Positions 12,701 through 63,003 of a DNA stretch of 64,000 bases are shown here, one piece after another. Source of the DNA: Amphibalanus amphitrite. Lineage: Eukaryota; Arthropoda; Thecostraca; Balanomorpha; Balanidae. The position numbers were made by a program, and so were the translations under genes. The stretch spans positions 186,001 through 250,000 of the forward strand of contig NW_024881618.1 in the NCBI RefSeq assembly GCF_019059575.1, read 5' to 3'. The notes under the pieces are model-generated. The model saw only the letters and a program-made list of their open reading frames with translations, made no database searches and was not told where the DNA came from. Within the stretch, counting starts at the first letter, position 1. Every line of letters starts with the position of its first letter.

Positions 12701-15700
12701 AGGTATGCGTTTTATGCGTACTGTAGCCCTTGCCAGCCACTACCTGTCACACTTGTCACATTTAGCTGTTCCCGAGGGCATATCACGTTAATCTGTGGTG
12801 CTTTTCCAGTGTCGAACCGACCAGTTCATCCAACATGCCTTATCCTGGAAAATCACCAGCTTGAACGTTAACGATATGGAACGATAATCATTTTGATATA
12901 TTGGCATTCCGGTGTTTATTTATGTATTTTCTCGTCGGTATGCCAGCGCTAATCCACTTTAATGCACATTGCACACAGTTGTGACCTCTGGCTGCGTCTG
13001 CCCGGCAGCCGCTGCAGCTGACTATGAAGTCGGAGAAGCAGCTGCTGTCGATGATGACGTCAGAGAAGCAGCTGCCGCCGCCGGCCTGTAACGGCCTGAC
13101 GGGCAGCTCGGCGGCCAGGGACGGCTCTCCGGTCACACAGGCAGAGACCAGCGTCACCGGACTGCCGGCCGTGCTGGCCGCTGCCGCCACAGCACTGTCG
13201 CAGAGGGGCGCCAGCACCGCCACCGTGCCGGCAGCGCTGGCCGCCAGCACCACAGGTCAGTCCCAGAGGGGCGCCAGCACCGCAGGTCAGTCCTAGAGGG
13301 GCGCCAGCACGGCGACCGTGCCGGCAGCGCTGGCAGCCAGCACCGCAGGTCAGTCACAGAGGGGCGCCAGCACCGCCACCGTGCCGGCAGCGCTGGCAGC
13401 CAGCACCACAGGTCAGTCACAGAGGGGCGCCAGCACCGCAGGTCAGTCCTAGAGTGGCGCCAGCACGGCGACCGTGCCGGCAGCGCTGGCAGCCAGCACC
13501 ACAGGTCAGTCACAGAGGGGCGCCAGCAGCACTAAGGGTCAGTCACAGAGGGGCGCCAGCACCGCGACCGTGCCGGCAGCGCTGGCAGCCAGCACCGCAG
13601 GTCAGTCACAGAGGGGCGCCAGCACCGCCACCGTGCCGGCAGCGCTGGCAGCCAGCACCGCAGGTCAGTCACAGAGGGTCGCCGGCACCGCAACCGTGCC
13701 GGCAGCGCTGGCAGCCAGCACCACAGGTCAGTCACAGAGGGGCGCCAGCACCGCCACCGTGCCGGCAGCGCTGGCTGCCAGCACCACAGGTCAGTCACAG
13801 AGGGGCGCCAGCACCGCAGGTCAGTCCTAGAGGGGCGCCAGCACCGCCACCGTGCCGGCAGCTCTGGCAGCCAGCACCACAGGTCAGTCACAACTCACAG
13901 ACACACCAGCACTGCTTGTTAGTCCTAGAGGAACACCAGAACCGCTTGTTAGTCCTAGAGGAACACCAGAACCGTAGGTTAGTCACAGAGGGGCATTAGT
14001 ACCGCAGTTCATTCCAAAAGTGAAGAGAAACATCAGGTCCACCGTCAGCCACAACTTCCAGAGTTATTTCAGGCTCGTCTCATCGATGAATGCTGATCGT
14101 CGGTTTTTAACAGTAGAAGCCGAGTTACCACCAAAGAACTCACTGCAATCGTAATTGTGGTCCCATATCCAGATAAGTCAGAAACATAAAGGACTTATGT
14201 AGAACGTAAGAGCTTGAAATACTTCTGCGTCAGCCAAGCTTCATCATCCCGGCGGTATATTCCGAGTAACGAGCTGCTCTTCAGGATTATTTCCTTACTA
14301 CATATCCAAGGATGCTTAGTGCCAAGACAGTAGCCGCTTTCACGACGGCCATCTGGTACACATTTGGTGCACATCTGGTACAGATCAGGTGCAGATTTGG
14401 TCAAATCAGGTTCAGTGTGTCTCTTAGTAGCGATCAGCTAGGGTTGCACTAATTGCTTATATGCCTGCTTTGTCATATTATCAGAGAGCATCATCGATTA
14501 AAACACTGAAATAAATTCACAAAATGAAGATATTTGCTGTAAAAGAAATTAGGTGCAGATTTGGTCAAATCAAGTGCATTCGCCGGATAGCCCGTCGTGA
14601 AAACGGCTATTAAGTCGCACTTCCTAGTTACCATATGTACATATTTAGTTGGCCACTAACTTTACTTGCGCTAGGTCGCGGTCTGTGCCAGTTTGAGTTG
14701 TGGCTTCAATACCGCCCTCCGCAAGATATCGCTGTCTCACCGAGCGTATGGCGGTTCCCCGCTTGGCCTGCTTAGTCTGAAACATGCAGCGTTTGTCAGC
14801 ATGGTTAGGGGAGCTGCGCGAAGCTGCCTGATTCAGCCGGCAGCACCGGCGAGCTAAGCTGCATCCACCGCGCTGCGTTTGACCACTATCAGACCGACTG
14901 CCGACCTCGGGCACCTGCACAGAGGGAGGGGAGGGTCGAATGTGTCACCTCACCGGCGCCCGACGACCCCCACCCGACAAAGACCGGCCGCTAAGTCAAG
15001 GCGAGGTCAACAAACAACTGTCGGATGACCAATTTATCTAATCAGAGCAAATACGGCCGCCAAGAGGACTGCCGGACGCAAGGCGGCAAAGTGCCGCAAA
15101 AACGTCCCGCCCCGACACGCACTTCGGCGCACATTGCGCTGCGCCCTGTTGACGGTCAGATTATGCATTCCTTGCAATAATTCCTCTATAAATAATCCTA
15201 ATCACGGCTACTTTCGCAACGCGCACAAAAACACGCCAGAACTGGAGTAAACACCTGAGGAGCGCTGGCCGTGCGCCAGATTATCATTAATTGACCAGTT
15301 TTTGCGCCTGCTGCTCGGCGCCGCCGCGATGCGCGCGATAGCGGCGCGCCGCGAACGGCGACTGTGCGCCACTGCCGCCGCCGCCGCCGCCGCGCGGCCG
15401 CCGGCGCTGCACCGTAAACAAAAGGATTTCGTCTGGTGGCGGCCGGTGGACGCACGGCCGGCCGGCGCGATAACCGGGCCGCGGCCGGCGCTAATGAGCA
15501 CACGATGGAAATACCGCGCCGCTCGCGCGCCGTTGGACGCCCAGATAAACCGGGCCCGTATAATAAAGCGGTGCGCGGCCGGGCGGCGCGCTGGCTGATC
15601 GGCGGCAGCGGCCGGTGGTCGGAGGTGATTGGCGGCGGCGCCGGCCGGCACCGCGCCCCCTGCCGCTCGTTTCCCGTGCCGATAGCGGCTGATGGTGGCC

Positions 15701-18700
15701 CGCTCAGAGACACCTCTCTCCCTGGTGCACCATGGTCGGCGACCTGCTTCACCCGGTGCAGAGTACGCGGGTACAGCAACTCAGCACCGAGTGTGCAATC
15801 ACAGCAGAGCGGACCAGCGCGGCCCCTCTCCGCGGCGGTACCCCGGTATCTCACCGTCCGACAATGAAACTGACAGCGACAGGTGACTGCGAGTCCTACC
15901 AAACCTCGAACCTCAGACATCCCAAACCTATGCACTAATCCGGATTGGTGATTCCGGGTCGGTGGCCAGCCGTGGGCGATGTGTTTCTCGCGGCGCGGCC
16001 TTGAACGCTGCAGCTCCGCAGAAGGGGCGGATGTGGCCGCCGATCTCGCTCGGTCCGGCCGAAGCGGACGCCGGCGCCGCACCACGTCACTTCCGCTGCA
16101 GGAGCCGGAAGTCGCCACGACCCGGGCACAGATGTTTTTCTGCCTCTCCGGAGACTGCCTCATGATCGACGGTCACGATTTTGTCCGGGAATTATACCGT
16201 GAGTTTGCACGGCTGCATTTTAAAGAAATTACGGGTATCGCTGGTGAACCCCTGTTAATCCGCTCTTGACATAAGTCGATTCAATAACGAAAATTATGGA
16301 CACCGATAACAATGCTGCCTTCCTTTCAGTGTATTAGATTTACAGTTCTTGCGCAAAAAAGACCCGACATTTTGACAATGTGTCTCACGAGCCACAGCCA
16401 TCTGCATCATTGAAAAGCTTTGGAGATTATCGAACTTAATTGAAGATCCGTAGGTGGGATCTTATGGAACCTGACGCTCAGCATCCGTGTAATATCGCTC
16501 AGTCACCGATCTGGCTGTTCACTGTTTGAAAGTTCAGTGTTAAGTAGACCCGGGCTGTTTGTCGTCACTAAGCGTCACAACGCGGGACTGATTGTTGACC
16601 GTATCCGGTGAAACAGTTGTCAACTGTGTCAGACGGCGATGACAAACAGCAATGCGCAGTGTCAGACGGCGATGACGGACTGTGTCAGATGGCTATGACT
16701 GTGAGACGGCGGCTACAGGCTTTGTCACAAAGCGATGGCAGTGTCAGACGGCGATGGCAGACCGTGTCAAACTGTGATGACTGACAGCGATGACAGACGT
16801 GGTGAACATGTGACGAAACGCGTAACGTATGGCGAGCAGGCAGGAGCGGACGTGAGGCGAGCAGCTGAGAAGAGGGTGACCCCGTGTCATTTGACGGGTG
16901 TGTATACTTGTGTGACATATCGGCAATGCGCAGCTTATCCACGCACACAGGGCTTGGGTCTCTCACCATTGAGCTCTGGCTTAATCATCGGGACTTTTTC
17001 TACCCATGATGAGAGGAGACGGACGAGAGGACCGGTTCACACCGTGTCCGGGAGCTCGGCGGCTCCGTGCGGGCCACACCTCCCTGAGCAGACCTACCGC
17101 AGCTCTGAGCCGGCCCCGCGTCACCGGAGACACTGCCCTAACCCCCCGACACACACAGCCGTGATCTGCGGGGGCGGCCCGGCAGGAAGGGACCCGGACC
17201 CGCCGATAGCTACACGAGGAAAGACCTCGCACAACGGGAGAAAGTATTGGGCTTTTTAAACGCTTTCAGTGATGTTATCTAAATCAGGGCTGCAGATTAT
17301 CCAGCTAACCATGATTGTGCAATACACATGAGTCATGGGAGCTTTATGGTGTTGTGGTTGGCTCGCTCTTGCTCGTTGAATGGGTAGTGTGCTGTATGAA
17401 CTCGACATTAAATCAAAGAGTGACAGTCAAAGTACAGGTGCGTGAGCAGGTTTCGGTCCGATTAAACCTGTAGCTAGTGCACAATTCACTCTGAACTCCT
17501 AATGACCACTACTCTCTCGGCTCTGGAGCCGCTGAGTCGGAGACGCCGTCCGGTCGGCCGTTGTCGGCTGTTTAGTAAATACGGTCTGCTGTGGTCAGCG
17601 CGGCGGGAGGCCGGTTGGACGGCCGGCCGTGCAGCTGGGCTTCTTTTCAGGGGCAGCCCACGCAAAAACCGGCCGCGTCGCGCGCCTAACAGCTCTGAGG
17701 GCCACCGGAAGGTCGCTGACGGGCGAGGCTTCTCATTAGGCAAGCGCTGCATTGGAGACCGCCCGCTTCAATCGCACCTGAAACAATTGCGCAGGCCGCA
17801 ATAAGTGCTCATCACACCGATTACCTGGCGCCTAGTAGTCATGGCAACGAGACGAGTTTTCATAACGGATTCTGTCTTTTGCTAGAACATGCGTCATGCA
17901 CGTCCATCAGATCTGTTTTCAGATTTAACAGAATTTCGCTGAATATGTCTGTCTATCTGTCTACCAGTTCGACTTTCCTGCCTTCCTTTGGTACGTTTAT
18001 CAGTGTAGGTCTAATACAACCGGTCTTAGATTGACCCAAGCTTCATCATCATCGCCTCAGCAAGCATCCGCCCTAAGTCAGTTCATAAGCCATTTCCGTC
18101 TGAGATCTTCACTCGGACGGATCTGAAGTCGGCCGCGTCGCACGACTGCATTGAATTTGATCGACCGGCGGTATTATCTTTTCATCCCGGGGCATTTACT
18201 AAAGACGTATTTAGAAAATCCCTCATAATGAGGTGGGCGGCGGGGCCGGCCGAGCCGACGCCGGCTAAGTCGACAAACGAACGGCTCCAAAGTCAGACCG
18301 GTCGTGCCGAGCCGCGTCGCCGACCGACTCAAACTTAAGCCGCGCGTAATAGGGCCGCAGAAAAAGAGGAGGATATCGGGATCTCTCCATGGATTCGCAT
18401 CGCGGCGAGGACTCAGTCGGCGGCGCGCTCGCTCGTCGGGCGAACCCGTATTGAGGGCGGCTGCCGGCCGGCTATAGGGCCCATGACGCCGAGCGGGGCT
18501 AATCCGGCCATCTGTTACGCTATTGGTGGCCGCCGAGTCGCTTAGCAGCTGCAACAGCACACGGCGGAGCCGGATGCAGCGCGGCCTCCGGACCATCCGG
18601 CGCGGATCAGCGGCGTTTTTGGCGGAGCCGCGGTCGGATCATGGCCACGGGCCGGCCGCGCTGCACCCCCCCCCCCCCCCCCGGACCGGCCAAAGCTGCC

Positions 18701-21700
18701 CAGCGTCTTAGCGAGGCGGTTTGTGTAATTTAAGCCGAGAAGCGTCTGAGCGATGTCATTATTGCATGGCCAGCGGGGTGTTTTAATCAGAGCGCTGGGG
18801 CGCGCGTGGCGCCCCAGCCCACCCCCGCCCACTACTCAGCCCCGCCCGGCTTGACAATCTTGTCAAGTGCCGTCATAACGGATTTCATATACGGTTACAT
18901 GCCGATATAAAAAGCATCACCTGCAGGTCTGAAATACACATCTCACTAGTCACTGTTCGATTCAACAGACGACACGTGAACTTGCTAGTTGACGTTCTAT
19001 GCTCGATAGGTAGATGGGTAGAATTAGTGGATCACGCGAGACAGCACGTACCGACTTTATAAACGGTGTTTAGGTATCAGCATATGTTAACCCGCATAAA
19101 AAAGTCGTACACTTGTGACCTGTAGGTACTAAACGATGTTACTAAAGTTTAAAGGGACTATCCCACCTTCTAAAATGTTGTTAACCCGCGCCCTGGTGGG
19201 CTCTGTTTATAACGCGACCTGGTGGGGGGGGGGCTATTTTTTGCCCCCCCCCCCTCATATCTCCGAAACTACTGGACGGATCCACAAAATTCAAACGGCG
19301 TTCGAAAGGCCTGTCAAATTTGTAGAGGGAAACCAAATTTCATTGACCTCGGGGTCACCGATGACGTCACAGGTCAGGTCAAAGATGAAATGTTTCACCG
19401 TTCACGGGTCTTCTAGGGAATGCGCTATAACACCGAGGAAAACGCATTTTGTCGAGAATCAGCGATAGGGCGTCAGTTGCCTAGTAGATATGTTGCTATT
19501 AGAGGTCACTGACAATACCAGCTCAGGTCACAGGTCAGGTCACCAAGGGTCACAGGTCAGGTCACATGAGCCCAACTTTACTAGGGTTGTGTGATGCATG
19601 TTTTCTGGCCAATTTTTCATTTCCAACTCAATGGTGTTGGTTATAAGACTATCAGGTACGGCTTAGGTCACTTTCTGGTGAAGTTCAGGTCAAGGTCAGG
19701 TCAAGGTCAGGCCAAAAAAGGTCAAATTTTAAAGTTGATAGTTTTGCATAAGATGGGTATTGATTCGATGCAGCTCGTCACGGGGAGTCTAATGGTGGTC
19801 TTTGTTTTGCGCTACGGGGCCTAGAATTGCTAAAAATTGAGTTTGAAAATTTGACGTCATCAATTTTGAACAGTTTTTTCGCTATAACTTCGCCAAAAAA
19901 AGAGGTATCAATCTCAAATTTGGTATGTGGATGGAAGGCGGTAAGGACTATCACATATATTCCGGTTTTTGCGAAATTCAAAAAACTTTCTGGATTTTTT
20001 GATTATTATATCCAAAAAATATATTTTTTGATTTTTGGGGGTCAAAATCCAAAAATTTCAAAAATCCGAGATCGCAGTTTTGTAGCCCTGTCAATTATAC
20101 AGCTTTTATGTCTTTATCATTTTTCTGTATTTGCAAAGCTATAGGCCTGACAGCTCTTCCCGCGAAACCCTTTTTTGGGTCGAAAACGGCAGAACATGAC
20201 GTACTCTGACGTCATTTCCGGCCAACCTATCATAGTCTTTGGAAAAATTTTTGGTCACAATGTGTAAAATTGATGTCCGGGAGGGTACTGAAAGTTTGGT
20301 GACGATCGGGGCAGCGGTTCTGGAGATATATCGAAAAGTCTGTAGGGGGGGCAAAAAATAGCCCCCCCCACCAGGTCGCGGGTTAAAACCAGTTAAATTG
20401 TGCCCGACTTTATAGATTGGATGACCAGGAACACGGTTCTGGCATTTATTTTTCATTAAACATCTTAGGCTTCCCATATTCCAAACACAAACTTTCAAAT
20501 ATGTGACGTCACAGCCCAAAATTACCTCCTTCCCCAGGCCACATTACTGTCATAAAGCTGATTCTTTTTACTCTGTAGGCACCACAACAAAGTTCAGACC
20601 AAGTTTTAAGCGATTTTTCAACGAACAAACCCATTTAAATCAGAATGACTAAACGAGGTGACGTCACACTAACGGTCGCTCCATGTTGAAGATAGGGCCT
20701 TGCGCAAGGCCCATTTTCAAATGAAGGGAACGAATTTCTTCAACACCAAGAGGCCGCGGGGGTTGCAACATAGATAGATAGTGGTTTCCGAACCTCGCCG
20801 CAAACTTGGCTATCTCAACTCAAACCCCATGTTAAAGGTGGGATAGTCCCTTTAATTGCAGCACGTCATCTAATCAATCACATCGCATCACTCATGCGCT
20901 TTGAAGTATCGGACATATCGGGCACTGATCACATCCAACAGTGAAGAGTAAGCATTCCATATAACTTACACAGCAAAACAATAATACAACTGGCACATTG
21001 TATTGTATTGTATTGAATATTTAAGAGCGATCCACATTCCAAATTGCGTGGCGATTAGGTACACCTTGCATGCATCAGGGCACCCGGCACCCAGCGTGCA
21101 TTCGATACCCCGATGCTCGGCACCGGGTACACCCGGTAGGTACCCACTCGATGCCACGGCACCCGGCACCGGGCACCCACAAACAGTCGATGCGCCGCAT
21201 TTATTGTATCAGCTGAGCCGTATCGACGGCGTCAGTGGGGCTTCGGCCGTCATCCTTTTAGGTGGGGTGCGCACCGCGCGAGCCGCTCCGCCGGCCGCCC
21301 ATTCCCGTTTATCACAGAAAAACACTCTGTGATACTTCTGCGTTGGGATTACAGCAAATCCTATGAATCCGGCCGTATTCCAAATCCCCTCGTCGTCGAG
21401 AGTAAAGTTGGCGACATACACGGGAAGGCCATCTCGCGCTGTGGCCTGATCCTTCCCGGCGGCGGGCGCCTCCGGTCTCCGGCGGACGGTGGGCGTCGCA
21501 CCGCCGCGCTCCCAAACAATGCACGGCATCGCGGCGTGCCAAAACACACAGCACAGCTCCCAGGAAAGTGGAGCACGCCGCGCCAAAATAACGCTCCGCC
21601 AATCGGCCGTCCGGATTAGGTGCGATCCCTTCAAAAGGATTAGGGCAGCCGCCGAGGATCACCGGTAATCCGGCGTCGCCCGCGATCATCAATCATGCCC

Positions 21701-24700: not shown

Positions 24701-27700
24701 AAATAGCCTATTTTTTTCGGAAACAGTTTTTCTGCAATAACTTTTAACCCAAGCCTTGTACGAGCTTACTTTTACCGGCATCGTGTTCCTCTCGTCAAGA
24801 CGCATCGAATGAACTATAACTTGACCTTGAAAGGTCAACTTGAAAATTTGACCTCAGGTCAAGGTCATGACCTGACCGGAAAGGGTCATGTTGCATCTCA
24901 GTCGATCCGTATCGTCGAGCTGAACACATCTAAGGCGTTTTCATCGCTCTAGCATGCCTGTATCAAAAGTTATTTGCGAAAAACTGTTAGATACCATTCG
25001 TGACCTAAGATGACCTCAGGGCATAAACAGGGGTCACGGACACCATTTTCATGTTCAGTGTGCCTAAACTACTTGTAATTCAGTGTTTGGGAGTGTTTAT
25101 AATGTCTTTCGTCCAAAAGAGGCGCATTTCAATTTTCTCCCATTGACTTATAATGGGGAGGTCGCAAAATTGACCTGACCTTAGGTCATCGATATCAAAA
25201 TTCTGAGATATACATTTTGTACATGCTATTGCTCTTAGCAATCGCTGAAAGTTTCAAAGCGATCGGTCACTCGGTGTAGATATGACAGACATTGAAACTT
25301 TTTATGAGGTGAGTTCACTTCAAGTGACCTGGTGACCTGACCTTGAATGACCTTGGTCTGAAATTTTCACAACATGTGTAGAATTGATGTATGATAAGGT
25401 GTACCAAAAACGGCGGCGCTCCACGCCGCCGTTTTTGAGATATTCGCGAAAAACCACAAGGGGGGGTGTTCAAACACCCCCCCCAGCAGGGCGCGGGTTA
25501 AGCGGTACGATATGCAACAGTTCGGGTTGTTGTGTATTTGGGTAATCTACATCCGTGTTTTGACTGTCATAGTTACGGATTCTTTCTGAAAATTTATGCC
25601 ATTCTGATGCCTGGCAAGCTGTCACGTCGCTGTGCCCCCTCCACAAGCCGTGCGGTGCAGCATCATTCAGGCTCTAACGCTAACACAAGTCGTGCGGTAC
25701 AGCATACATTCAGGCGCCAAAACGTCGTGCGGTACAGCATACATTCAGGCGCTAGCACACGTGGTGCGGTACAGCATACATTCAGGCGCTAACACAAGCT
25801 ATGCGGTACAGCATGCATGCAGGCACTCATACACGTCGTGCGGTACAGCATTTACCTTCTTGCGCTAGCACAAGTCGTGCGACACAGCATACATTCAGGC
25901 GCTAAAACGTCGTGCGGTACAGCATACATTCACGCAAGTCGTGCGGCACAGCATGCATTCAGGCGCTAACACAAGCTATGCGATACAGCATACATTCAGG
26001 CGCTTGCACAAGTCGTGCGGCACAGCATACATTTAAGCGCTAACACAAGTCGTGCGGATTTAGGCGCTGACATTAGCGGCTAGTTTCATACGGGATTCAT
26101 ATACCTAAACCGAAATGTGTGCTTAGTTATGCCGTTTATCATAAAAGCATTTGGCAGATCCGGCGTCGACGCTCAGGTTATTTGAAGCATTGTGAAGTAT
26201 GTTCAGATGAAGTATTACAAGAACACCGGAGCGAGCAATTAATGTTTGAATCTGAAGGTTTATCCGAGCAGCCTTAGCGTTTTATAAAATAAAAATAAAA
26301 ACTGTAAAGAGGTGTGAATGACGGATATAATGTTAAAGACATTCAAGCCTTAAGCTCTCGCACGGATTCTGCCTCGACAGCCTGGGACATAGTGCAATGA
26401 AATAAAGCGAACTAATCCCCGTTGTGTTTCAGTGGGAGCAGCGGCAGCTCTGCCGGTCAGATTTGTCGTCGAGTTCATCGACCTGCCGGCAGATGTCAGG
26501 AGCAGCGGCCGGCGCCGGATCGAGGACTATGCCATCATCCCGTCGTCGACAAAATTCAATGACGTCACGGCGGCAGTGCTGCACAAGTGTGGCCTGGAGC
26601 ACGTCAACGTGTCGGAGAGCACCGGTGAGCGAGGCGGCGGGCTGGGCTGACACGGGCCGCCTCGGCTGGGGGCGGGGGCCGGACCGAGCTGACACAGCCG
26701 GGGCTGTGTGGGTGGGCCGGGAGTAGGGGCGGACGGCTTCGGGCTCACTTCGGCATGAGCTGTAATAGCTGGGCTATCGAGGCACCAAAATCGAATCTGC
26801 GGGACACCCATAAGATGTTCGTTCTCAGAATTGTATAAAAAAAAGAACGTGGGCTAGTTTTTAGTGGGGGTCTTGGAAGTACCCTACGCGACAAAATATA
26901 ACATTGGGCCCGTTGATTGACCCATACCTATCGTGTAATTGCATTGATATGCAATGCATAATATGTTCTCTGACAATTTCAAAAGAAAGGACTAAGGAGC
27001 CGCCGAGTTTCCGTACCGCTGGCCCCCGACCCGTCCTCCGTGCGTGTGACAGCGTGCCTGTCGCTGTGTCTCTGGCTGACCCGACCATCCCTGTGATAGC
27101 GTACCTGTCGCTGTGTCTCTGGCTGACCCGACCATCACTGTGACAGCGTACCTGTCGCTGTGTCTCTGGCTGACCCGACCATCACTGTGACAGCGTACCT
27201 GTCTCTGTGTCTCTGGCTGACCCAACCCCTCACCCTCTCCCTGTGACAGCGTGCCTGTCGCTGTGTCTCTGGCTGACCCAACCCTCACCCTCTCCCTGTG
27301 ACAGCGTACCTGTCGCTGCGGAACTGGAAGCCGCTGACCCTGGAGCAGGTCTGCGCCGCCGATGGGCACACCGTGGCCGACATCCTCGGCGACGTCATCA
27401 ACACGGCCACGCTGCGCATCTTCTGCCGCGAGACCCCGGCCGGACGGCAGGCGGCCGATGTGAAGGAGCGGCTGCTGCGACTGCTGGTCACACACGGCAG
27501 CGGCATCCTCACCGCCTCCGGCTGTCCGCTGGACGAGGTAAGAACCGAGAAGGACCGGATAGAAGAGCGGACAGTGACACATGCAGACCCGACAGACCCG
27601 GACAGTCACACAGACCGGCCATCCTCACCAGATCCAGCTGTCCGCTGGACGAGGTAAGACATGGGACCAGACGGGTGAGATAAGAGTACTGCACAGACCC

Positions 27701-39559: not shown

Positions 39560-40735
39560 CCTCGGCTGTGTCGTCCGACTGCAGACGGACGGTCTCGGCT
39601 GTGTCGTCCGACTGCAGGGGACGGTCTCGGCTGTGTCGTCCGAATGAGACAGACGGTCTCGGCTGTGTCGTCCGACTGCAGACGGACGGTCTCGGCTGTG
39701 TCGTCCGACTGCAGACGGACGGTCTCGGCTGTGTCGTCCGACTGCAGAGGGACGGTCTCGGCTGTGTCGTCCGACTGCAGGGGACGGTCTCGGCTGTGTC
39801 GTCCGACTGCAGAGGGACGGTCTCGGCTGTGTCGTCCGACTGCAGGGGACGGTCTCGGCTGTGTCGTCCGACTGCAGACGGACGGTCTCGGCTGTGTCGT
39901 CCGACTGCAGGGACGGTCTCGGCTGTGTCGTCCGACTGCAGGGGGACGGTCTCGGCTGTGTCGTCCGACTGCAGGGGACGGTCTCGGCTGTGTCGTCCGA
40001 ATGAGAGGGGGACGGTCTCGGCTGTATCGTCCGACTGCAGACGGACGGTCTCGGCTGTGTCGTCCGACTGCAGGGACGGTCTCGGCTGTGTCGTCCGACT
40101 GCAGGGGGACGGTCTCGGCTGTGTCGTCCGACTGCAGAGGGACGGTCTCGGCTGTGTCGTCCGACTACAGACGGACGGTCTCGGCTGTGTCGTCCGACTG
40201 CAGGGGGACGGTCTCGGCTGTGTCGTCCTACTGCAGGGACGGTCTCGGCTGTGTCGTCCGACTGCAGGGGGACGGTCTCGGCTGTGTCGTCCGACTGCAG
40301 AGGGACGGTCTCGGCTGTGTCGTCCGACTACAGACGGACGGTCTCGGCTGTGTCGTCCGACTGCAGGGGGACGGTCTCGGCTGTGTCGTCCTACTGCAGG
40401 GACGGTCTCGGCTGTGTCGTCCGACTGCAGAGGGACGGTCTCGGCTGTGTCGTCCGACTACAGACGGACGGTCTCGGCTGTGTCGTCCGACTGTAGGGGG
40501 ACGGTCTCGGCTGTGTCGTCCGACTGCAGAGGGACGGTCTCGGCTGTGTCGTCCGACTGCAGACGGACGGTCTCGGCTGCGTCGTCCGACTGCAGGGGGA
40601 CGGTCTCGGCTGTGTCGTCCGACTGCAGACGGACGGTCTCGGCTGCGTCGTCCGACTGCAGGGGGACGGTCTCGGCTGCGTCGTCCGACTGCAGGGGGAC
40701 GGTCTCGGCTGTGTCGTCCGAATGAGGCAGACGGT
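39560..40735. repeat. 30-33-bp minisatellite, about 35 copies
   Basis: Unit CTCGGCTGTGTCGTCCGACT followed by GCAGACGGACGGT, with 30-33-bp length variants (GCAGGGACGGT, GCAGGGGGACGGT and so on) and a few TACAG, AATGAG and CTGCGTCG variants. Long open frames on both strands (repeats like RSRLCRPTAGD, or SRDRPSAVGRH on -) come from the array: length variants shift the frame freely, and no start context, splice site or codon bias argues for a gene. The array decays into CTGTCTCGTACCGACTGTCT-type repeats up to about 41030. Confidence 0.93.
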
Positions 40736-41030
40736 CTAGTCTGTCTCGATTCGATCGGACGATCTCGTCTATTTCGGACGGACGGTCTCGTCTGCCTCGT
40801 CTTCGTATCGTTTGTCTTGGACGAACAAACTATTTCGTCTGTATAAGAGAGGCAGTCTTGTCCGTCTCCGGCGGATCGTCTTGTCCTAGCGTCTTGTCCT
40901 AGCGTCTGTCTCGTACCGACTGTCTCGTCTGTCTCGTACTGAATGTGTCGTCTGTCTCGTACCGACTGTCTCGTCTGTCTCGTACTGAATGTGTCGTCTG
41001 TCTCGCACCGACGGTCACGTCTGCCTCTTC
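40736..41030. repeat. CTGTCTCGT-rich degenerate tandem repeat
   Basis: Short words CTGTCTCGTAC / GAATGTGTCGTCTG repeat at least four times near 40915-41010; it appears to be a degenerate extension of the adjacent minisatellite. Confidence 0.75.
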
Positions 41031-41244: not shown

Positions 41245-41715
41245 CATCGAGACAGCCGGACTAGGATTAGTGCGGAGCCGTGAGCTGTGATCCCCCAAGG
41301 TCCACAGGGCGCCTATGGCCAGCCCAAAGGGGTCCCGGTCAACCGTAGCCCGCAGGACGTTCCCAGACAGTCGGGCCATGATTGGGGCGGGTCTGTGATA
41401 CCCCGAGGACAACAGAGCGCCTATGGCCAGCCCAAAGGGGTCCCGGTCAACCGCAAGGCGTTCTCAGACAGCCGGGCTAGGATAAGGGTGGGGTCGTAAT
41501 CCCGAATCCGTGATCCCCGAGGACCACAGAGCGCCTATGGCCACCCCACGGGGTGTCCCTGGCCAGCATCCCAGGGCGCCACCGGACAGCCGGACTAGGA
41601 TTAGGGCGGGACTGTGAGCTGTGATACCCCGAGGACCACAGGGCGCCTGTGGCCATCCCATGGGGTGTCCCCGGACAGCCGGATTAGGATTAGGGCGGGT
41701 CCGTGATCCTCGAGG
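41245..41715. repeat. ~90-115-bp tandem repeat, five copies
   Basis: Each copy has GACAGCCGGACTAGGATTAG, a GGGCGGG(T/A)CTGTGA block and CCACAGGGCGCCTATGGCCA; copies start near 41251, 41366, 41466, 41582 and 41673. Four copies keep a GGATTA or GGATAA word. Confidence 0.85.
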
Positions 41716-44392: not shown

Positions 44393-47300
44393 CTACTCGG
44401 CCGGCGTCGCCGTCAGCACCTTCTTACCAAACAAACGGATGAACACGACCATACCTGGAACGGAGAGCCCACGGGACGTTAATGGACAGCAAAGACACAG
44501 CAATGAGGCGGAAAGCACGAAACAAGCTGGAATGGCGTTAAAACAGCCGATAAGTAGCGAATCCGCGAACGCTGCACTCCTACCCTGGCGTCTCGACTCA
44601 CCCATGAATGTGGCGCAGACGACGGCGAGCATGATCCACAGCCAGCAGCGGCAGGCGCGCCGGCTGAACTCGGCCAGCCGCTGCGACTCGCGCTCCAGGC
44701 GACCCGTGTTCTTGTCCGTCAGCGCAGTGCTGCGCTCTAGCGTCTGAAACGGGAAACACAATCGGTACTGCCACCTGACGGACGGGTCGGGAACTACACG
44801 CAGCTGAACCGCGACTGGGATATTCATCGGTAACGTGTGTGCTGAACCGTGCTTCGCTTCATTACCATGACCACATTTTTCACTTCATCATAAAATGTTT
44901 CATTGCACTTGACAAAGCCTGAGAACCGGGAGGGAACTCTGGAACCACGAATATTCAACAAAACAGAAACCTCCAATGTCCCATATAGTTATTACACTAA
45001 ATCAACTTGTCACATGCAGCACTGAAGCTCACTCACCTCTCTATCTTTAGCAATGACGTTTTTGGCGATGAGCGACTGCTCCTTGAGGTTTCTGGTGAGC
45101 GCCAGCATCTCCTCTGCGGCTCGCTCCTGCAGCTCGTGGTGGCGCTTCATCACCTGCTCAAAGTCCTCCTCCACGCTGCCGCCGCCGCTGGCTGGAGGCG
45201 CCGCATCGCCCCCTGCAACGGGTTAGTTCAGTACCTGGGCTACCCGTGTCGGGAAATTACACTTACGGCAAGCGCTCTAAAATGTCACCACACTACTTCC
45301 TCTGGTTACGAGCGAGCGAGCGAGCGCAGCGAGCGAAGCCAAGTCTTTTCAATATAACGGAAAAATCTCAGTATGAGCGGCCCGGCCCGGCCTGTAACGC
45401 TTTTGAGAGGCTTATATCTCAGCAACCGCTGGACCGATTGGCCTGCGGTCTTTTTTGCTGGGTAGCCCCATCCCTTCTTCCCCGTAATTGACTACTTTTG
45501 ATACATCTCAGTGACCGTCGTGGCACGTGCCACGTGAAAAGTCAAGGGTGTTCAAGCAGTTTTGCAAAAGTAATGATTTTGAGAGGCCCATATCTCAGCA
45601 GCGGCTTGAGCGATTGTCTTGCGGTAATTTTTATAGGGTAGCTGCATCCCTTCTACCAAAGGTCGGATACTCTTCATCTATGTGAGTGACCCCCACTGCA
45701 CGTGCAAAATACAAAAAGAAGAGGTGCCAAATTTGTTCCCATTTCAGTAACTCGGTAATTACTGTGGCGATTTCGCTGAAACTTGGCATACAGGTAGGCA
45801 CCCACCAGGCAATGCATTCCCATGTGTTGCGGTTAGGGTGCTCCTGCACGTGCGCACGTGCAGGGGGCGTTTCCAGATCTCGAGAACGGCTGGGCCGATT
45901 GCGCTCAAATTTGGTACACGGTTGGGGACCGGTTAGTAGGGTGCCGTGCAAAAGTCAGTTTGGACCCCGTTTGCACGTGCGCACGTGCAGAATGCCGTTT
46001 CCAGATCTCAGGAACGGCTGGGCCGATTGCGTTCAAATTTGGCACACCGCTAGCGACCGGTTAGAAGGGTGCTTTGCGCAAGCCCGTTGGAAGTACCCTC
46101 TCGCCCTTCCGCACGTCAGGGCTCACTATCTCGCTCGCTCGTTCTTCGCCCCAAAAGGCGTTTTAAGCCCGGTTCCGACTATGAGGTTGCTTCAGGCCAC
46201 ATCAGGCCACATCAGGCCAGATCAGGCCAGATCAGGCCCAATCAGGCGTTCAGGCCAAAGTTGAACGTCGGACGCTCGGCCTGATCAGACCGTATGGGAC
46301 GCCAGACGCCAGACGTCAGGCGTCAGGCCGTCGGTCTGCCTCACCAAATATCTTTTAAATGTGTGCGTGTTTTTTTTTTTTACCAGCGAGAGCGAATTGC
46401 GATTTTCTAAATAGCTTACAAGTCTGAGCATGAGCAGCCCGGCCCGGTTTGGCGCAGCTCGTAACGCTTATGCGAGGCTTTTATCTCAGCAGCCGCTGGG
46501 CCGATTGACCTATGGTCTTTTTTTGTTAGGTATAGCCTCATCCACATCCCTTCCAGCTCGAAATTGACTACTCATGATGCATCGAGGTGACTGTCGTGGC
46601 ACGTGTGAAGTCAAGGGTTTCATAGTTGTTTCGCTCGGTCAAAGTAACGATTTTGATAGGCTCATATCTCAGCCAAATCTGTGGCGATCGACCCATAGTC
46701 TTTTTTGGTATCTTCTTCCCATACCAGACTATGTACTCTCGATGCATGTTTGTTGCCCCTTCCCCTGCACGTGCCACGTGCAAAATGAAGAGGTGTCAGA
46801 TTCGCTCTCATTACAACAACTAGGTAAATGCTGGGCCGATTGCGCTGGAGCTTCATATGTCGGTAGGCGTCCACCGGACAATGCATTTCAACGTTTCACA
46901 TTTGGGGTCCTACTGCACGTGCGCACGTGCGTCGTGCAGGGACCGCTTCCACATCTCAAGAACGGCTGGGCCGATTGCTCTCAACTTTGGTACACCGTTA
47001 GAGATCGACTAGAAGGGTGTCCCACACAAGTCAGTTGGGGTCCAGTATGCACGTGCGCACGTGCAGACTGCTGCTTCTACATCTCGAGAACGGGTGGTCC
47101 GATTGCGCTCAAATTTAAAGTACACTGTTACGGACTGGTTAGAAGCGTGTCCCGCACAAGTCAGTTGGAATAGGTATTGTTTCGCACTTCCTCGCTTGAT
47201 GAGCTCAACTCTCGTGCTCGCCCGTTTGTCAGCTCCAAAGAGGTTTTACTGGTATAATCGCTCTATATAATGAAAACCTTAAACCGATAATCTTAATCAT

Positions 47301-50300
47301 ACTGCGTAACATGTTTTAATGTGGTTTTAAGTAATAAAAACATGATTTTTATCGAAAATCTAAGAAGTGGCTAAAAGAAAACAGAAAAGACATGCATGTT
47401 CTATGTTGTAGGTTCTTATGTGCTTTGCAGACAATTACCACACTTAAAAAGATATAAGCATTGACGCAACTCAACTCCGAGAAATAAGAGCCCGTTGTTT
47501 ATGACTCTTTTCATGTCATCATGCACGTTTAGGGTCTCGATTAGCTTGATCTAAACAAGGTTTGCTTTTTGCTCACACATAGGTACCCGCTGTGGTTTCC
47601 CGCCACAAATTTATCTTGCACATGGAGCATGTCGACTTAAGAGTTTAGTTTCTTGTCTTCCCGTCAAATTTCTTTGGTCTGGAAATGAGTCTCCCCGGCC
47701 AAGCTGCCATTCGATATAGGATAGGTCCTTTTGTGCCGTGGGGTCCAGCGGGGCGAATGGAGTAGCGGTTGGTTCCATTCAGTCCGAGTCATGACAGAGA
47801 GTCATGGGATCTAGCCTCTAGGAGAGGTAGCGGGAGCCTGTTCGGTGCCGGCGACGATGAGTTTAGTTGCCGCAGAAGACACCGCAACAGCTCGGCAGAG
47901 GTTCGTGGCATCGAGGGCGACCGAGAGCGAGTGTCCTTCTCGAGCAAAACTTCCAAAAGTTTACTTTCATCCCTCCCTGGTGTTTGCTGGAGCGGCTCAT
48001 ATCAGGCGCAGCCATCCGTTACTGTTCTAAGCTAGGTCTCCCGGCCCGGGAGCTCAGACGGGGAAGGTGGACGAGCTGGATTTCTGATGCTCGACAGGTC
48101 AGACGGCTGTAAAGGCTGTCTTGAACCTGGATCTTCCACCATAGCCCGATTTATTTCTCGTAAGCTTGAATGGTTATCTTGCTACGATATTGATGAGTAG
48201 CACATTATTTTTTGGAATCAATTTTAAAAGAAACGCTAATTTGGTTGAAATAATGTTGGACTTGTCGAAACCAACGTTCATAATTAATTTAAACAAAACA
48301 GCAATCAGTAGCAACCATGGGAGTTATTCATCCTTCAAAGCCCGAAATGACACAAATTAGGCCACAATAAAAATCAAATAAAAAAGAACCATGCGCAACG
48401 TCTCGTGCCTAATTCATACTGGGTCTGTTTTTTGTGTGCATTTATATAAATAGGCACTTTTATTTTGCAGAGTGTCAAAAAGGGCACGATTTCGAATACC
48501 ACGCATTGTCACGTCGCAAATGCGCCAATGCAAATTCAAAATGGCGGGCGCAGCGTCAGGCCAGATCAGGCCGGATCAGGCGCAAAAAGTTGACTTGAAG
48601 TTAACTTCGGCCTGATCTGGCCTGAAGGTCTGATCAGGCCAGTTCAGGCCGGATCAGTTGCTCCGGTTCGCACTAGCATGCCGTCAGGCCGTAAGCCTTT
48701 TCCAGCCTTTTTGGGGATGATTGGGCCTGATCTGGCCTGATTGGGCCTGAAGTGACCGTAGTCGGAACCGGGCATTACTGGTCATACCAATGCTAAGAAA
48801 TCAATAACCAAGAAGACTACGTCAATAATCAAAGCCTACCAAAATTATCCGCAACAAAATACCGTTCATAATAAATCGCAATCAAGCTGATGCTTCACCA
48901 ATCCGAAAACCATGACATCCTTTGGTCCGCGTCCCAGTCCTTCACCCTCCCCCATCAATGCCCCTCGGTGCCTTCACTCACCGACCGGCGTTCCCAGCAG
49001 CTGGGCCCTCGCCTCGGCGTGCGCGCGGCCGCCGCGCCGGTGCCGCAGCTCGGTGAGGGCCGGGCTGGCGTGTGATCTGGACACCACAGTCAGTACTGGA
49101 GACACGGGCGGACTGGCGGCCGGGCGGGCCGGCGGCTCGGCGGACGGAGGCGTCACCTGCAGACGGAGTAGGGAAGAGACGGTCAAAATATGGTACGGGA
49201 GGGCCAGGGTACAGCACGGGGCGGCCAGGGGACGACACAGAACGATGGTCACGGCGCCACGAGACGGAGAAAAGAAGGTGCGTGAGGGTCATGGCACCTC
49301 ATGCCGTAAACAGGGTAAGGCCGGACCAACACAGATTACTTGATGCAAGGGGTGACCCAAGGTCGCGCCAGTTTTCATCAGGAGGCAGGATACAAGTCAG
49401 TGGGCGGGGAAAATTCATCTTATACCAATCCAAGATGTTGTCAACGTGTAACGGTAGATCGTTTAAATGGTCCAGGTAACGTCAGTTTTAGCTGGAATCT
49501 GTTCAGAAAGACATACACAAGCTTGCTACACTTAAAGGGACAGTATCATCGAGAAAAAAAATCCATGTATGGAGCTGATTTTTTTTTACTAGCATTTCTT
49601 ATTTTTCTGAATCAGAAAAACATAGTTTGAAGACCGAACTCGGTGAAAAATATTGCAACCACATTTCATTTTCATGATTCATTTTCATGAGCGAACCACC
49701 ACTATACAAGCATGGCCGCCAGTTTGGAAGCATGCAAAATTCCTACAGAACTGGCGCAGATAATACATTATTGACGCTACGCTTACGCGGTCGTTCTTCT
49801 GATTGAGTTGTCCTTAGGGAGAGGTAGCCTTAGGTATTGCCTATAAAAATATAACGTGACAATTGGAGGGAGTGACAATTGGACGTGACAATTGACAATG
49901 GGAGAAAATATCACGTGACAATCACGTGATAAACGTCATACATTGGAGGGAGATTGTGATTCAAGCTGGAGGAATTCCTTTGTTGAGCCGCTAGAATCCG
50001 AAGGAAACAGCGGAAATTGCCTACGACTATTTAATGAATTTAACGGTGATGAATAAGTGCGAAAAACGTTTTGGCTTTATAAAATTTGATGAAATGACCA
50101 GGGTAAAAGTTTTATTACTGGCGGTCAATTCAAAACGGCGCAAACATTTAAACAGTGAAGATAGTGAAGCACGATTCAAAGTGTGGTACACCTTTCGTAC
50201 TTTGAGCGGCGATAGCGGGATAACGGTGTGGAGCTTCGAGGATCGGTCTTCAGTTCCCGGACCAGAAAGGTGGGGCCTATGCAATGTCAAATTTCATCAA

Positions 50301-51636
50301 AATGGTGATACTGTCCCTTTAAGCAATGGTGAGGTACTCTCGAAAAAAAAATAGGAAGTTTGAGTCGATTCTCCGCCTACCTGCGGCTCCGGCGGTAAAA
50401 AGCTCTGCAGGTGTTCAATGCGTCTGCCGAACTCGCTCAATTTCTCCGGACTCGGTACACTGCAAACAAGATAAAAGGCGTCAGCTCACTGCCGACGATG
50501 ACATGTGATCAAGAAAAAAGCACGCTTCAGATGTTGGTGTAAAGGCAAAGCCTGTTATAAGAGCATGATAACACAATTTAAGCTTTGACTTATACCAATG
50601 CGGAAAAATCCATAGTACCTACCAACTACCAGTTCATAGGATCTCTCAAGAAAATGATCAATCATCCAGGTAAGTAATTGATGACCGGGGTCTGGGACTA
50701 GCGGGATACATACTCGTACATAAGACTATCGTAACGCTAACACTATCAATCTGCCCAAAAGAAAGGCTACAAGTATCAATTTAACCTCATCGAGCTAATA
50801 CGGTACAGAGTATACGTCATTATATGCTAGGCTAAGCTCATTCGTATTTCCGTTAATACATGGATCCGATTAGATGCCTGTCAATATCCGAACGGTTGTC
50901 TTTTTTACTAGGCAACTGGAGAGCAACGGCATCGCCATGACTGAAATACGGCAAAGAAATCAGCAGCATTAAATCGATCGTGTCGAGTCGTGGGCAAATT
51001 GACTTAATTTCACGCCGTAACAAGTGGAATATACTCGTCAAAGCTGTACCTCGGACTGGACTTCAGGGCGTCAAGCTGAGTCCGGAGCGCATTAACGTAC
51101 TGCAACAGAGGAAAAAAACATTGTTAAATAAATAACCCTCGAAAGCACGGCTAGTCGCATATCGTACTCAGAGAGCAGCCTAAGTTTGCAAACGAAATAA
51201 GGAGGTAGTGTTGGTTGTAAGAAATCAATTACACGGGTCATAGTCGCGATCATGACACGTTATCACCGCATCGTGCGTAAAAAAAACAAACTATTAATTG
51301 ACGTCAGCACTACCAAATAATTGAATGGATTCGTAGGTACAGTGTTCGTATTTGCATAACGGTCCGGTGGTAGACAAAAGATTCCCAAATCAGCTTTGGG
51401 TGCCATAAGTCACCGAAAACAGCAGTTATTCTTTTTGTAAGTCCCCACTACAATCAGCGCGATGGCAAGCAATCTCCCTTGTCCTAGCGTTGCTCTGACC
51501 CGCGGAAGGACGGGCCACCGACCACTGCGGCGCTGACCTGCTCGTAGCGCCAGTTGCCGTCGCACTCCTCAGCGGCTGCCATCCGTTCACACTGCTGCAG
51601 CAGGCGGGACAGGTTCACCTCCATCCGAGACGCCAT
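44393..51636 (-). CDS. USE1: Vesicle transport protein USE1 (ER Qc-SNARE)
   Basis: Tail-anchored SNARE of the endoplasmic reticulum; with syntaxin-18, Sec20 and Sec22 it mediates fusion of Golgi-derived retrograde vesicles. Exons on -: 51636-51538, 51099-50950 region limited to 51099-51050, 50459-50381, 49156-48982, 45212-45037, 44743-44602, 44454-44393. All phases match; total 783 nt, 260 aa, against 259 aa in human. The N-terminus MASRMEVNLSRLLQQCERM and the segments YVNALRTQLDALK and EKLSEFGRRIEHLQSF follow the family. The SNARE motif is about 149-222 (FEQVMKRHHELQERAAEEML), with aspartate 191 in IAKDRE at the position of the non-canonical zero-layer Asp known for USE1. A single membrane segment (about 227-248, WLWIMLAVVCATFMG then MVVFI) is followed by a short tail. 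The ATG has a strong context (A at -3, G at +4). Introns 3 and 4 contain mobile elements. Confidence 0.93.
45307..46165. repeat. GCGAG-bounded repeat, diverged copy 3 (USE1 intron 4)
   Basis: Starts ACGAGCGAGCGAGCGAGCGC and ends near CAAAAGGCGTTTTA, where the next element interrupts it; its last bases (CTGGT) resume at 48778. Palindromes TGCACGTGCGCACGTGCA at 45845 and 45972. Shares the GAACGGCTGGGCCGATTGCG subunit with copies 1 and 2. Confidence 0.82.
46166..48774. mobile_element. Composite 2.6-kb element with GCCCGGTTCCGACTA termini
   Basis: Left end AGCCCGGTTCCGACTA, right end TAGTCGGAACCGGGCA, flanked by TTA on both sides (46163-46165, 48775-48777). Removing it restores the repeat end GCGTTTTACTGGT seen in other copies, so the 3-bp duplication TTA is well supported and would fit a Harbinger- or CACTA-like mechanism. 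Subterminal arrays of AGGCCAGATCAGGCC-type words lie at 46190-46330 and 48555-48760 in inverted orientation. A further GCGAG-bounded repeat (46385-47253) is nested inside. No transposase ORF seen. Confidence 0.8.
46385..47253. repeat. GCGAG-bounded repeat, diverged copy 4 (nested)
   Basis: Starts near ACCAGCGAGAGCG and ends AGGTTTTACTGGT. Contains TGCACGTGCGCACGTGC palindromes at 46914 and 47048 and several GGGCCGATTG blocks. The most diverged of the four copies. Confidence 0.75.
49536..50318. mobile_element. TTAA-flanked element with AGGGACAGTATCA termini (783 bp; USE1 intron 3)
   Basis: Begins AGGGACAGTATCA and ends TGATACTGTCCCT, flanked by TTAA (49532-49535, 50319-50322). The right boundary lies only about 60 bp from USE1 exon 3. 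No meaningful ORF. Confidence 0.85.
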
Positions 51637-52925
51637 CTTGAAGCAGTGCCGCCTGCTCTATCACAGATCGAGATAACCGGGTCTTTGTGATGCTGGTCGG
51701 ACCGATGGTGACTCAAATTCTCCAAAATCCTGTGAAAAGACAAGCTAGTTAGCCTTAGTTCACACTGCCTCCCGGCTTCATGATAATAAGGAAAAGGAAA
51801 CAAATAGGTTATACGCGCTTTTTTTAGCAATTATCATCCAAAACCACAGCTTCATCCTTCGCTAACAATCGGACCGAGGCGAATCAATATATTCGGGTGT
51901 ATCAATCACATTGCACCGCCCGTCATCGATGACATCTGAGCCCCTCCGATAATGACTCTGAAAATATGGCTAAGGAGAGAAAAGGATGGTACTCACAGGA
52001 CGAGCTGATGGTAGGCTGGATCACTGGATAGGGTTGAGTTGGTGGGACAGACTGTCCCCTGAGCAGCTTGCTCACCGGGTCGCCAACCAGTCTGTCTCAC
52101 CGGGCGCCAAACGGTACAGCCAGGCACTGTCTTCAGTCCAGTATCTCACTGATATTCCTCACTGAAATGGCCCACTGTACTGTCTCACTGGACGGTTTAG
52201 CCACTCGGAAATATCTCACTAAAATGTCTCACTGGAATATTTCATTAGACGGTACAGCAGCCCTGGTCCAATTCCACTACACGGTAAAACCAACCAGCTT
52301 CGCGGCTCGTGCCCTCACTGAACGGTGCAGTCACCCGGGATAGTTCTACCAGGCGATACAGCCGCCCGGGACCGTCTACTAGTGTCTCACTGGAGTCTCA
52401 CTGGATAGTCATCCAGGGCTGTCTCACTGAACTGTCTCACAGGACTACCCCGCTGAACGGTATTGTCACCCGAAACAGTCTCACCGGACGTTACAGCCGC
52501 CCGGCTGCGTCTCACCAGAGTGTCTCACTGGACAGTTTCACTGAATGATGAACACTTGAGTCTGACTCTGGACTGTCTCAATTGAGTCTCACTGCACTAT
52601 CTCACTGAACGGCACAGCCGCTCGGTCCTACCCACTCGTAGCTGGAGGCGCGGGAGCTCCCTGACACAGTGGCCGCCGACGGCTGCGGCGAGGGCAGCGT
52701 CACCAGCACGCCCGCGTTCCCAAAGTGCGCGTGCAGCACGCGCCGGCGGTAGGTGCCGAACGAGAACAGCTGCTCCCGCTCGGCAGCCGCCCGCTGCCGC
52801 TGCTGGGCCGCGAAGATGCGCCGCGCGGCGTCACTGTACCGCTCCTCTATGGAGAGGTGGGAGGAGGAGGAGGCCGAGCCAGACGAGGAGGACTGGGAGG
52901 AGGAGCAGCTGACTGGGTCGGCCAT
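51615..52925 (-). CDS. Small unrecognised protein overlapping or abutting the USE1 start
   Basis: A first exon from ATG 52925 encodes a Ser-rich start, a charged helix (IEERYSDAARRIFAAQQRQR, about residues 26-45) and GTYRRRVLHAHFGNAGVLVT. I do not recognise the family. Two splice models keep it open. (a) Donor after 52632 (TGG|GTAGGA) joined to the acceptor before 51729 (CTTTTCACAG): 120 aa, stop TGA at 51663-51661, 24 nt before the USE1 ATG. (b) Donor after 52636 (GA|GTGGGT), a 27-nt microexon 52023-51997 (acceptor CCTATCCAG, donor GTGAGT), then the same 51729 acceptor: 143 aa, ending at 51615 and overlapping the USE1 start by 22 nt in another frame. In both, the last exon is also USE1 exon 1, implying a shared transcript. 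A 29-codon upstream ORF begins at 52936. The first exon looks real by composition; the joins are less certain. Confidence 0.45.
52040..52600. repeat. GTCTCACTGGA-rich degenerate satellite
   Basis: Many copies of TGTCTCACTGGA / GTCTCACTGAAC words with irregular spacing, lying in the intron of the small ORF on -. Confidence 0.8.
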
Positions 52926-54406
52926 CGGACGGCCATGCTGGCTGGGTGAACGCTGCCGGGGATCTCACTCGATCAGTACCACCTGCTGGAGAGGGAGGAT
53001 GGATAGGGAAGGGCATCCAATGACAATGTTGTAGTGAGAAAGACATGAATATATAGAAAAGAGTCCACAACAAGTGTCCATAACAAAATGTAACAAGTGA
53101 CCCAATAAAAAGATGAAGATAAAGATGAGAATACACAGAAACTTGAACTGTTTACCAAAAATATCAAATGCAAGGCCCTCCAGCAAAAGTGGTTAGTCAG
53201 TCAGTGTGCTTTTGAGGTATAAGCTTTGAATGGCACAGGCGATGCAGTAAAATAGTCTTTAATAGAAATAAGAGGCTTCATTTTCATGCGGACAATGTTT
53301 GTTATGAGCTTTTGGACGCATTATAATACTGATCTCAATCTGGATTGGTTACTTTATTGTGATGCTAGCAACTAACAACTTCATAATCAAAGAACCATAA
53401 GCATATTGATATGGTGTGTGCCCCATGCAGCAGCTACCGATAGTATTAAATAAAAATTATTTATGCGCTAGCCGCTAGCTGAGTCATCCCACAGTTCAGA
53501 TCTTGATCTCATCAAAATTCTCATAGGTATTTTGCCACTGATGGAAACGAGGCCTCTTTCTGGTCCCCGCTTTTTATTCTCCAGGTGGGCGAACCCCATC
53601 TAGCGCTAAGCGTCTAAGGACCCGCTCAGAGCTGTGGTTGTTTTAGCCGCTCGGCCCATTTCAGATGCAAAGTTGATAAGCACATGAAGTTCCTTCAGGT
53701 GTTTATGGCAGCATGTGAGACGTCTGGTGTAAGAATACCAAATAATGTATGAATATACAAAACGTATCATTGAAAGCTTCTTAGGGCTTTATCTTGACAT
53801 ATAGGTAGGTACCTAAGGTACCTTATTTGTTTCCCTCTGGAGTTTTTACAGGCTATGGATTTGCCTGCTAGACATACCTTAGTTGTAGTATATTTTCAGT
53901 CAATGCAATTAATTACGAGTTATATCAATATCCCAGATCATTAACGAAACAAAAATCAAAACAATAGGGATGCAAAATCAGTGTAAAACTTCCCATATGC
54001 CTCCAACACCGACGTGCAGTTTTAATTTCAATTTTGTAACGTATGCGCTAGATTTGTCGACACAATATTAGAGATGGGAGTCGTATGTCAAGCAAGTACC
54101 ATTTGGTACTGGACGGACGGTTGACGCCGTGCCAGTTCGTGAGATGTGAGAAAAAGCCTGAGGCGTTTTAATAATGGCATTATTGGTGATCGATTGGAGT
54201 GGATAAACTTTCAGGGAATTGCTTTTTTGTCGAAAATAGGCAAATCAATCTAGCGTCGAAAGCTCATAGCTCATTAAATTTTTCCTCGACTGCGTCACTA
54301 TATTTCTATGCCCTGTCGGCTGGAGAATGGCTCAGTGTGGCTGCAACGGCAAAGTGGGCTATTTGGTCATTGAATTATTGCTATTTATTCTTGATGGGTG
54401 GTAACA
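52926..54406. other. Divergent intergenic region between the USE1-side gene and BRWD
   Basis: About 1.5 kb separate the two start codons, which point away from each other. Mostly AT-rich; no TATA box or conserved element that I can single out. An upstream ORF (ATGGGTGGTAACAATGGATC from 54394, ending at TAA 54418) overlaps the BRWD start. Confidence 0.5.

Positions 54407-63003
<8,597 letters not shown>

Follow-up and report, generated by a model that had tools for sequence, protein, structure and literature searches.

Short blocks spanning the splice site were found repeated in tandem at exon-intron junctions of two genes of the barnacle Amphibalanus amphitrite, with copy numbers that differ between two versions of the locus. 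The analysed stretch of 64,000 nucleotides (G000:C121:186001-250000), called the window throughout, belongs to a genome of 807.6 Mb in 2644 contigs. We consider it rather probable that the arrays reflect frequent local tandem duplication filtered by selection, with junction-spanning copies being tolerated and staying recognisable for longer, so that they seem anchored on the junctions. The genome would undergo frequent small tandem duplications, their units ranging from tens of bp to about 130 bp. Selection would remove the ones within exons, those within introns would be free and soon unrecognisable, and a unit spanning a splice site would be tolerated, with the first donor copy or the last acceptor copy still joining the unchanged exon. 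We infer that the outer sites are used in this way and that the extra copies would therefore merely lengthen the intron and leave the protein intact; the duplication mechanism itself is likewise proposed. From two copies on, an array could grow, shrink and exchange sequence by unequal pairing. Owing to constraint on the exon half of the working copy, junction duplications would stay detectable longer than intronic ones and would thus seem junction-anchored.

Arrays in dve and BRWD on two haplotypes

The window contains a dve-like gene with a SATB-type ULD domain and a homeodomain (profile search), a gene with WD40 repeats which we take to be BRWD, following an earlier note on this DNA, and on the minus strand USE1-like exons (44602-51657), a name presumed from peptides in 3 of 5 predicted exons. 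The curated BRWD exons 5-16 have canonical splice sites throughout; joined with the first donor and the last acceptor of each array, they form a single open frame of 768 codons. Exons of the remaining genes were predicted with a small gene finder for which BRWD served as the training set; self-training on locus L046, 20 fetched 10-kb loci and the window itself followed, and the resulting splice profiles were canonical. Joined predictions of L041, L042, L045, L031 and the DDB1-like gene contained stops, so that an exon or boundary is missing there; from these only single exons or boundaries entered the analysis.

Using a gene-blind self-similarity scan (offset 12-800, +1/-1.3, score of at least 20), local repeats were found to cover about 14% of the window, many of them far from the exons of dve, USE1 and BRWD, for example at 25661-26057 and 39561-40748. 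The latter is a minisatellite with a 33-bp unit, repeated about 35 times and free of stops in several frames. In the BRWD region from 56.5 to 62 kb all 6 scan clusters sit on exon ends. As a chance control, four fetched 10-kb loci yielded 44, 2, 24 and 3 segments at offset 15-600, and three first-order Markov resamples of each yielded 0 in every resample.

The dve and BRWD arrays of the window lie on the plus strand. In dve, the predicted exon 2 (13009-13255, gene finder LLR 53) has its working donor after 13255 (donor score 11), and an array over this donor (13163-14022) holds 13 donor-like hits including the working one, with spacings of mostly 30, 33 and 63 bp. Inspected by eye, the exon 2 array (13009-13892) begins within the exon, many of its 63-bp intron units stay in frame, and some units contain an in-frame TAG. 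Exon 4 of dve (27305-27537, gene finder), encoding the ULD/SATB-type oligomerisation domain (PF16534, E 1.9e-8), carries an array of 6 copies with a unit of 47-56 bp over its acceptor (27038-27318), and its donor is followed by a copy 116 bp downstream (27504-27659; scan segments 27504-27543 and 27620-27659).

In BRWD, the scan revealed a copy at offset 129 of the exon 5 donor (56618-56820; exon 56517-56667, working donor after 56667). The WD40-encoding exon 7 (57461-57798, domain match) has acceptor copies at offset 61 (57396-57497) and, over its donor (57772-58000; scan cluster 57772-57941), one clear copy at offset 131 and two weaker, diverged ones. Five copies with a unit of 75-89 bp cover the acceptor of exon 8 (58044-58478; exon 58416-58702). 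Copies of the exon 11 acceptor are offset by 81 bp (60143-60270), and the donor of exon 13 (exon 61308-61530) shows four clear copies and a partial one (61482-61752), with spacings of 51, 69 and 37 bp and more. A doubtful second copy of the exon 8 donor (58689-58785) lies near 58772; its exon part measures 14 bp, homology of the intron part was undetectable (z 0.4), and the copy fails a targeted search at score 14. Thus, 9 of the 10 duplicated junctions listed in the earlier note were recovered by the gene-blind scan, and the exon 8 donor proved too weak. The unit size of about 30 to 130 bp and the up to about 13 copies given there agree with the scan (offsets of about 30-131 bp, up to 13 copies). 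Its statement that USE1 is free of such duplications also held: 0 of 10 tested exon ends were spanned, with best scores of 0-7.6. The matched exon parts of spanning copies measure 11-63 bp, and the extra copies sit in the intron, downstream of the working donor or upstream of the working acceptor. As an intact frame forces this placement, it is no evidence of a special mechanism.

Elsewhere along the window, a DDE_3 transposase match (PF13358) was found at 482-1210. The segments 7163-7405, 45868-46088 and L046:4953-5196 share an internal 127-128-bp tandem structure, look alike by eye and are probably one dispersed repeat. A short AACCT run in BRWD intron 13 (61825-61846), which is also present on the second haplotype (L046), resembles the arthropod telomere repeat.

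The best BRWD match elsewhere in the genome lies on contig C468, which also holds, in conserved order, dve matches 29 and 40 kb upstream of it. Comparing the BRWD exons of window and C468, 62 differences in 1831 bp were counted, 58 of them synonymous and 4 changing an amino acid; fourfold sites differed at 41 of 355 positions (11.5%). Exons 5-14 are equal in length on both contigs and exon 15 differs (196 versus 199); between the two, the BRWD exons are constrained. For one barnacle a range of 6-20% is given in PMC8270832. Synteny over 40 kb and a fourfold divergence within this range favour, and do not prove, that C468 represents the second haplotype and not a recent paralog.

Copy number differs between window and C468 at 8 of the 12 junctions compared. 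The dve exon 2 donor has 13 hits in the window and 6 on C468 (L047; one of the 6 inside the exon), the dve exon 4 acceptor 6 and 3 copies (L048), and the dve exon 4 donor 2 and 3. For BRWD the respective numbers are 2 and 3 at the exon 5 donor (L049), 1 and 2 at the exon 6 acceptor, 5 and 3 at the exon 8 acceptor, 2 and 4 at the exon 11 acceptor, and 1 and 2 at the exon 13 acceptor; they are equal or unclear at the exon 7 acceptor and donor, the exon 8 donor and the exon 13 donor. The acceptors of exons 6 and 13 and the donor of exon 10 are single in the window and duplicated on C468 only. A 1.8-kb insertion on C468 (L046:1861-3647) starts just past the BRWD exon 8 donor.

Boundaries compared with matched intron points

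Counting all genes examined and both haplotypes, 22 boundaries with at least one spanning copy were found. Pfam matches were obtained for five predicted products or parts of the sampled genes: a proteasomal ATPase, CPSF_A (in the L039 part of the DDB1-like gene, not in the exon bearing the duplicated donor), a kinesin motor, FtsH_ext (start of L041) and AAA with peptidase M41 (L035). The names PSMC1-like, paraplegin-like, DDB1-like, kinesin, YME1L-like, VCP-like and PEX1-like are our assumptions. One acceptor of the PSMC1-like gene is spanned by a copy that has lost its AG. Read base by base, the paraplegin-like pair shows two acceptors and one donor in L041 and one of each in L042. The DDB1-like gene has one donor duplicated at offset 68, with 39 exon and 19 intron bases aligned, and in the kinesin gene one donor has three copies with only 5 exon bases. 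No spanning duplications were seen in the YME1L-like pair (L035, L036), the VCP-like gene (L030) and the PEX1-like gene (L039, minus strand). The recurrent accumulation of extra splice sites beside real exons is real; it occurs in four further sampled genes and varies between haplotypes. The two paraplegin-like loci have similar exons and largely unalignable introns, and may be paralogs. The two have the donor array in common, as well as a duplicated acceptor whose offset differs between them (77 and 100).

BRWD and dve were picked since they show the pattern; all other sampled genes are called independent here. The expectation was taken from points in the same half-introns. The tests overlap in their data and are not mutually independent, and all P values are nominal. 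Using a score of 18, 7 of 138 independent boundaries were spanned compared to 2.42 expected (bootstrap P 0.031), and using a score of 16 the number was 9 of 138 against the same expectation (P 0.005). Without the second members of pairs, 5 (P 0.109) or 7 (P 0.017) of 90 boundaries were spanned versus 2.18 expected. The independent genes thus have a 2- to 4-fold excess at boundaries. At score 18, C121, the contig of the window, had 6 of 28 spanned versus 2.2 expected, and C468 had 7 of 20 versus 1.9. For unmatched intron points at score 18 the corresponding comparisons were 7/138 to 104/5152 in independent genes, 6/28 to 111/884 on C121 and 7/20 to 108/1215 on C468.

Separated by age, young copies (identity of at least 0.92) spanned 3 of 138 independent boundaries versus 1.95 expected, or 2 of 90 versus 1.70 without second members of pairs, and older copies spanned 6 of 138 versus 0.51. 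The latter divide into 3 versus 0.18 expected at identity 0.84-0.92 and 3 versus 0.33 below 0.84. The excess at identity 0.84-0.92 was also obtained as 5 of 118 versus 0.52 expected; it exceeds what a 1.5- to 2-fold slower decay predicts, in tiny numbers. A coverage profile of 11 independent loci with 114 boundaries showed no peak at the boundaries (acceptors 6.9%, donors 2.5%, compared to 4.6-12.1% at 20-800 bp on the intron side). For the second members of pairs (61 boundaries) the values were 3.1% and 3.4% versus 0-8.3%, and for C121 and C468 together (61 boundaries) 22-24% versus 13-27%. The boundary excess is read as mostly survivorship because older copies hold it and the profile has no peak at independent boundaries. 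The earlier note's description of the duplications as anchored on splice junctions, and the comparison of boundaries with control points it had proposed, run here on the sampled genes with matched half-intron points, thus come out in part: the excess exists (7/138 versus 2.42), but it lies in older copies, with young ones at 3 versus 1.95 and a profile lacking a boundary peak.

A tentative alternative, which we hold to be possible and clearly less credible than survivorship, makes the junctions true duplication hot spots, with G-rich intron starts and pyrimidine-rich intron ends provoking slippage or break repair. Across all sampled genes intron starts have 38% G and intron ends 36% C, compared to 25% G and 23% C in mid-intron. 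Young copies are enriched at the boundaries of BRWD and dve on both haplotypes (C121 4/28 versus 1.69, P 0.021; C468 3/20 versus 0.66, P 0.041), but not clearly in the independent genes, where the profile lacks a boundary peak as well. Tests of event placement favour boundaries. In a first version 7 of 12 independent clusters were spanning versus 2.55 expected (p 0.004), and 5 of 10 versus 1.84 without second members of pairs (p 0.017). A stricter version gave 7/12 versus 3.27 (p 0.018) and 5/10 versus 2.35 (p 0.056), changing to p 0.17 (12 clusters) and 0.29 (10 clusters) when spanning events were double-weighted. At threshold 22 it gave 7/11 versus 3.12 (p 0.012) and 5/9 versus 2.20 without second members (p 0.040), and at threshold 15 it gave 10/15 versus 3.9 (p 0.0006; double weight 0.027). 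In BRWD and dve the boundary was spanned by 9 of 9 clusters on C121 (3.24 expected; two of them lie in L045, beyond the window) and by 7 of 7 kept on C468 (1.57 expected), or 7 of 9 when two intronic C468 clusters (L046 starts 4502 and 4953), left out of the stricter test as dispersed repeat, are included. Double weighting gave p of about 0.002 (C121) and 0.0007 (C468). Against hot spots in general, many arrays lie far from exons, and in five other locus pairs (L028/29, L031/32, L033/34, L035/36, L037/38) no tandem-type insertion overlapped an exon, with several found in non-coding DNA. In BRWD and dve a more frequent origin at junctions possibly contributes. As a separate observation, the contig pairs C401/C1691, C78/C277 and C64/C153 have equal AAA match scores, as if haplotypes were uncollapsed.

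At the BRWD exon 5 donor, working and extra copies have swapped versions between the haplotypes (56618-56820 in the window, L049:560-900 on C468). In the window the working copy has A, C and A at positions -4, +3 and +7 and the extra copy C, G and G; on C468 the working copy has C, G and G and the last extra copy A, C and A. The -4 site is one of the 4 amino-acid differences between the haplotypes (Thr/Pro). The swap would be accounted for by gene conversion or unequal exchange inside the array, a likelier cause than three linked sites changing in parallel. One could speculate, though we regard it as unlikely, that splice junctions act as hot spots of duplication in this lineage and that the extra copies exchange sequence with the junction in use.

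Fate of the extra splice sites

In a set of extra copies chosen without scoring the core, GT was kept in 26 of 28 donors and AG in 20 of 22 acceptors. Intact dinucleotides in the aligned intron flanks amounted to 83% for donors and 72% for acceptors. Because only the copy can lose its core, the expected core retention is about 91% for GT and 85% for AG, by our own estimate from the square roots of the flank values. With retention near this prediction from flanking decay, nothing points to selection that favours or disfavours the extra sites, and their fate appears near-neutral. The divergence ratio of exon to intron part was 0.64 for donors (11 events), near the 0.5-0.65 expected if only the copy drifts, and 0.20 for acceptors (15 events). 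The latter is lower than the neutral floor of 0.5. Pyrimidine tracts that change fast, and having picked the exon stretch that matches best, may account for part of this. Acceptor copies without intron-part homology were considered as a sign of a new mechanism and rejected, since exons 6 and 13 show related intron ends against the other haplotype (by eye).

Selective retention of the extra sites, be it for regulated alternative splicing or in-frame peptide repeats (63 bp at dve exon 2, 51 bp at BRWD exon 13), is improbable in the light of these values. Many extra sites do have a strong consensus (mean of 8.85 bits compared to 10.71 for working sites), and at dve exon 2 most of the main spacings' lengths fit this view, being divisible by 3. 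The mean scores and an unusually good retention of GT or AG (63 of 65) came from a list partly picked by eye, and the retention effect disappeared in the less biased set, where retention was no better than flanking decay predicts. Moreover, copy number varies between haplotypes as described, some dve units contain an in-frame stop (by eye), and unit lengths are mixed by inspection: 30, 51, 54, 63, 75, 81 and 129 are multiples of 3, and 47, 61, 77, 83, 89, 95, 100, 116 and 131 are not.

An assembly artefact is very improbable. The arrays are known here from assembled contigs alone, and the assembly seems to retain uncollapsed haplotypes, but the copies are mutually diverged and recur on the second contig with differences of their own. 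Since most of these arrays recur on C468, though in other numbers of copies, an error in one contig is an unlikely source, and array turnover is quick.

Equally hard to believe is a link of the arrays to intron gain, as stages or leftovers of tandem duplication around AGGT. That route is described (PMC3443670) and several acceptors read AG-GT (BRWD exon 8, paraplegin-like exons), but the introns pre-exist here with the copies inside them, and both haplotypes have those between BRWD exons 5 and 14.

Relation to described systems and meaning

Intron gain by tandem genomic duplication has reportedly been seen in potato RdRp (PMC4974935). Internal gene duplication and introns from tandem arrays are said to have been treated by Gao and Lynch 2009 and Zhuo et al. 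2007; the likeness would be partial-gene tandem duplication reshaping introns. No title among the matches listed concerned junction arrays of such density, in a literature search that left most subscription journals outside.

Tandem duplication is an accepted route to introns according to PMC3443670, and the earlier note names duplication around AGGT as known. In that system, as here, local tandem duplication provides extra AG and GT sites; it makes a new intron, whereas here copies are added to an existing one, and no new intron bounded by duplicated AGGT in a former exon was found in BRWD, where the introns between exons 5 and 14 occur on both haplotypes with equal exon lengths. Calling the build-up of decoy sites an undescribed pattern was too strong. 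Human segmentally duplicated genes have variable internal tandem repeats at exon-intron boundaries that form novel introns and splice variants (PMC2812944). These are likewise minisatellite-like, variable in number and placed across the boundary, and the human ones can alter splicing. The barnacle arrays share with them a tandem repeat overlapping the boundary and a copy number varying between gene copies, here haplotypes (8 of 12 junctions). The human repeats differ between paralogs and have transcript support; here the differences are between haplotypes, affect many junctions of one gene and are seen in DNA only. Another crustacean, Daphnia, has new introns with direct repeats, some copying exon ends, which PMC4202315 attributes to staggered breaks. 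Those exon-end repeats measure 4-12 bp in newly gained introns, compared to 11-63 bp of exon here in introns without sign of newness. Unusual in the barnacle are the density of the junction arrays and their polymorphism between haplotypes.

The arrays are a natural experiment on spliceosomal choice between neighbouring sites that are almost identical. They also advise caution, since constraint on one copy can make random duplication appear targeted. The multiplication of splice junctions, usually inferred long after, is seen here on one locus that a single assembly holds in two versions. If extra copies do trade sequence with the working junction, the intronic copies would be a reservoir supplying new exon ends and splice sites via unequal exchange or gene conversion.
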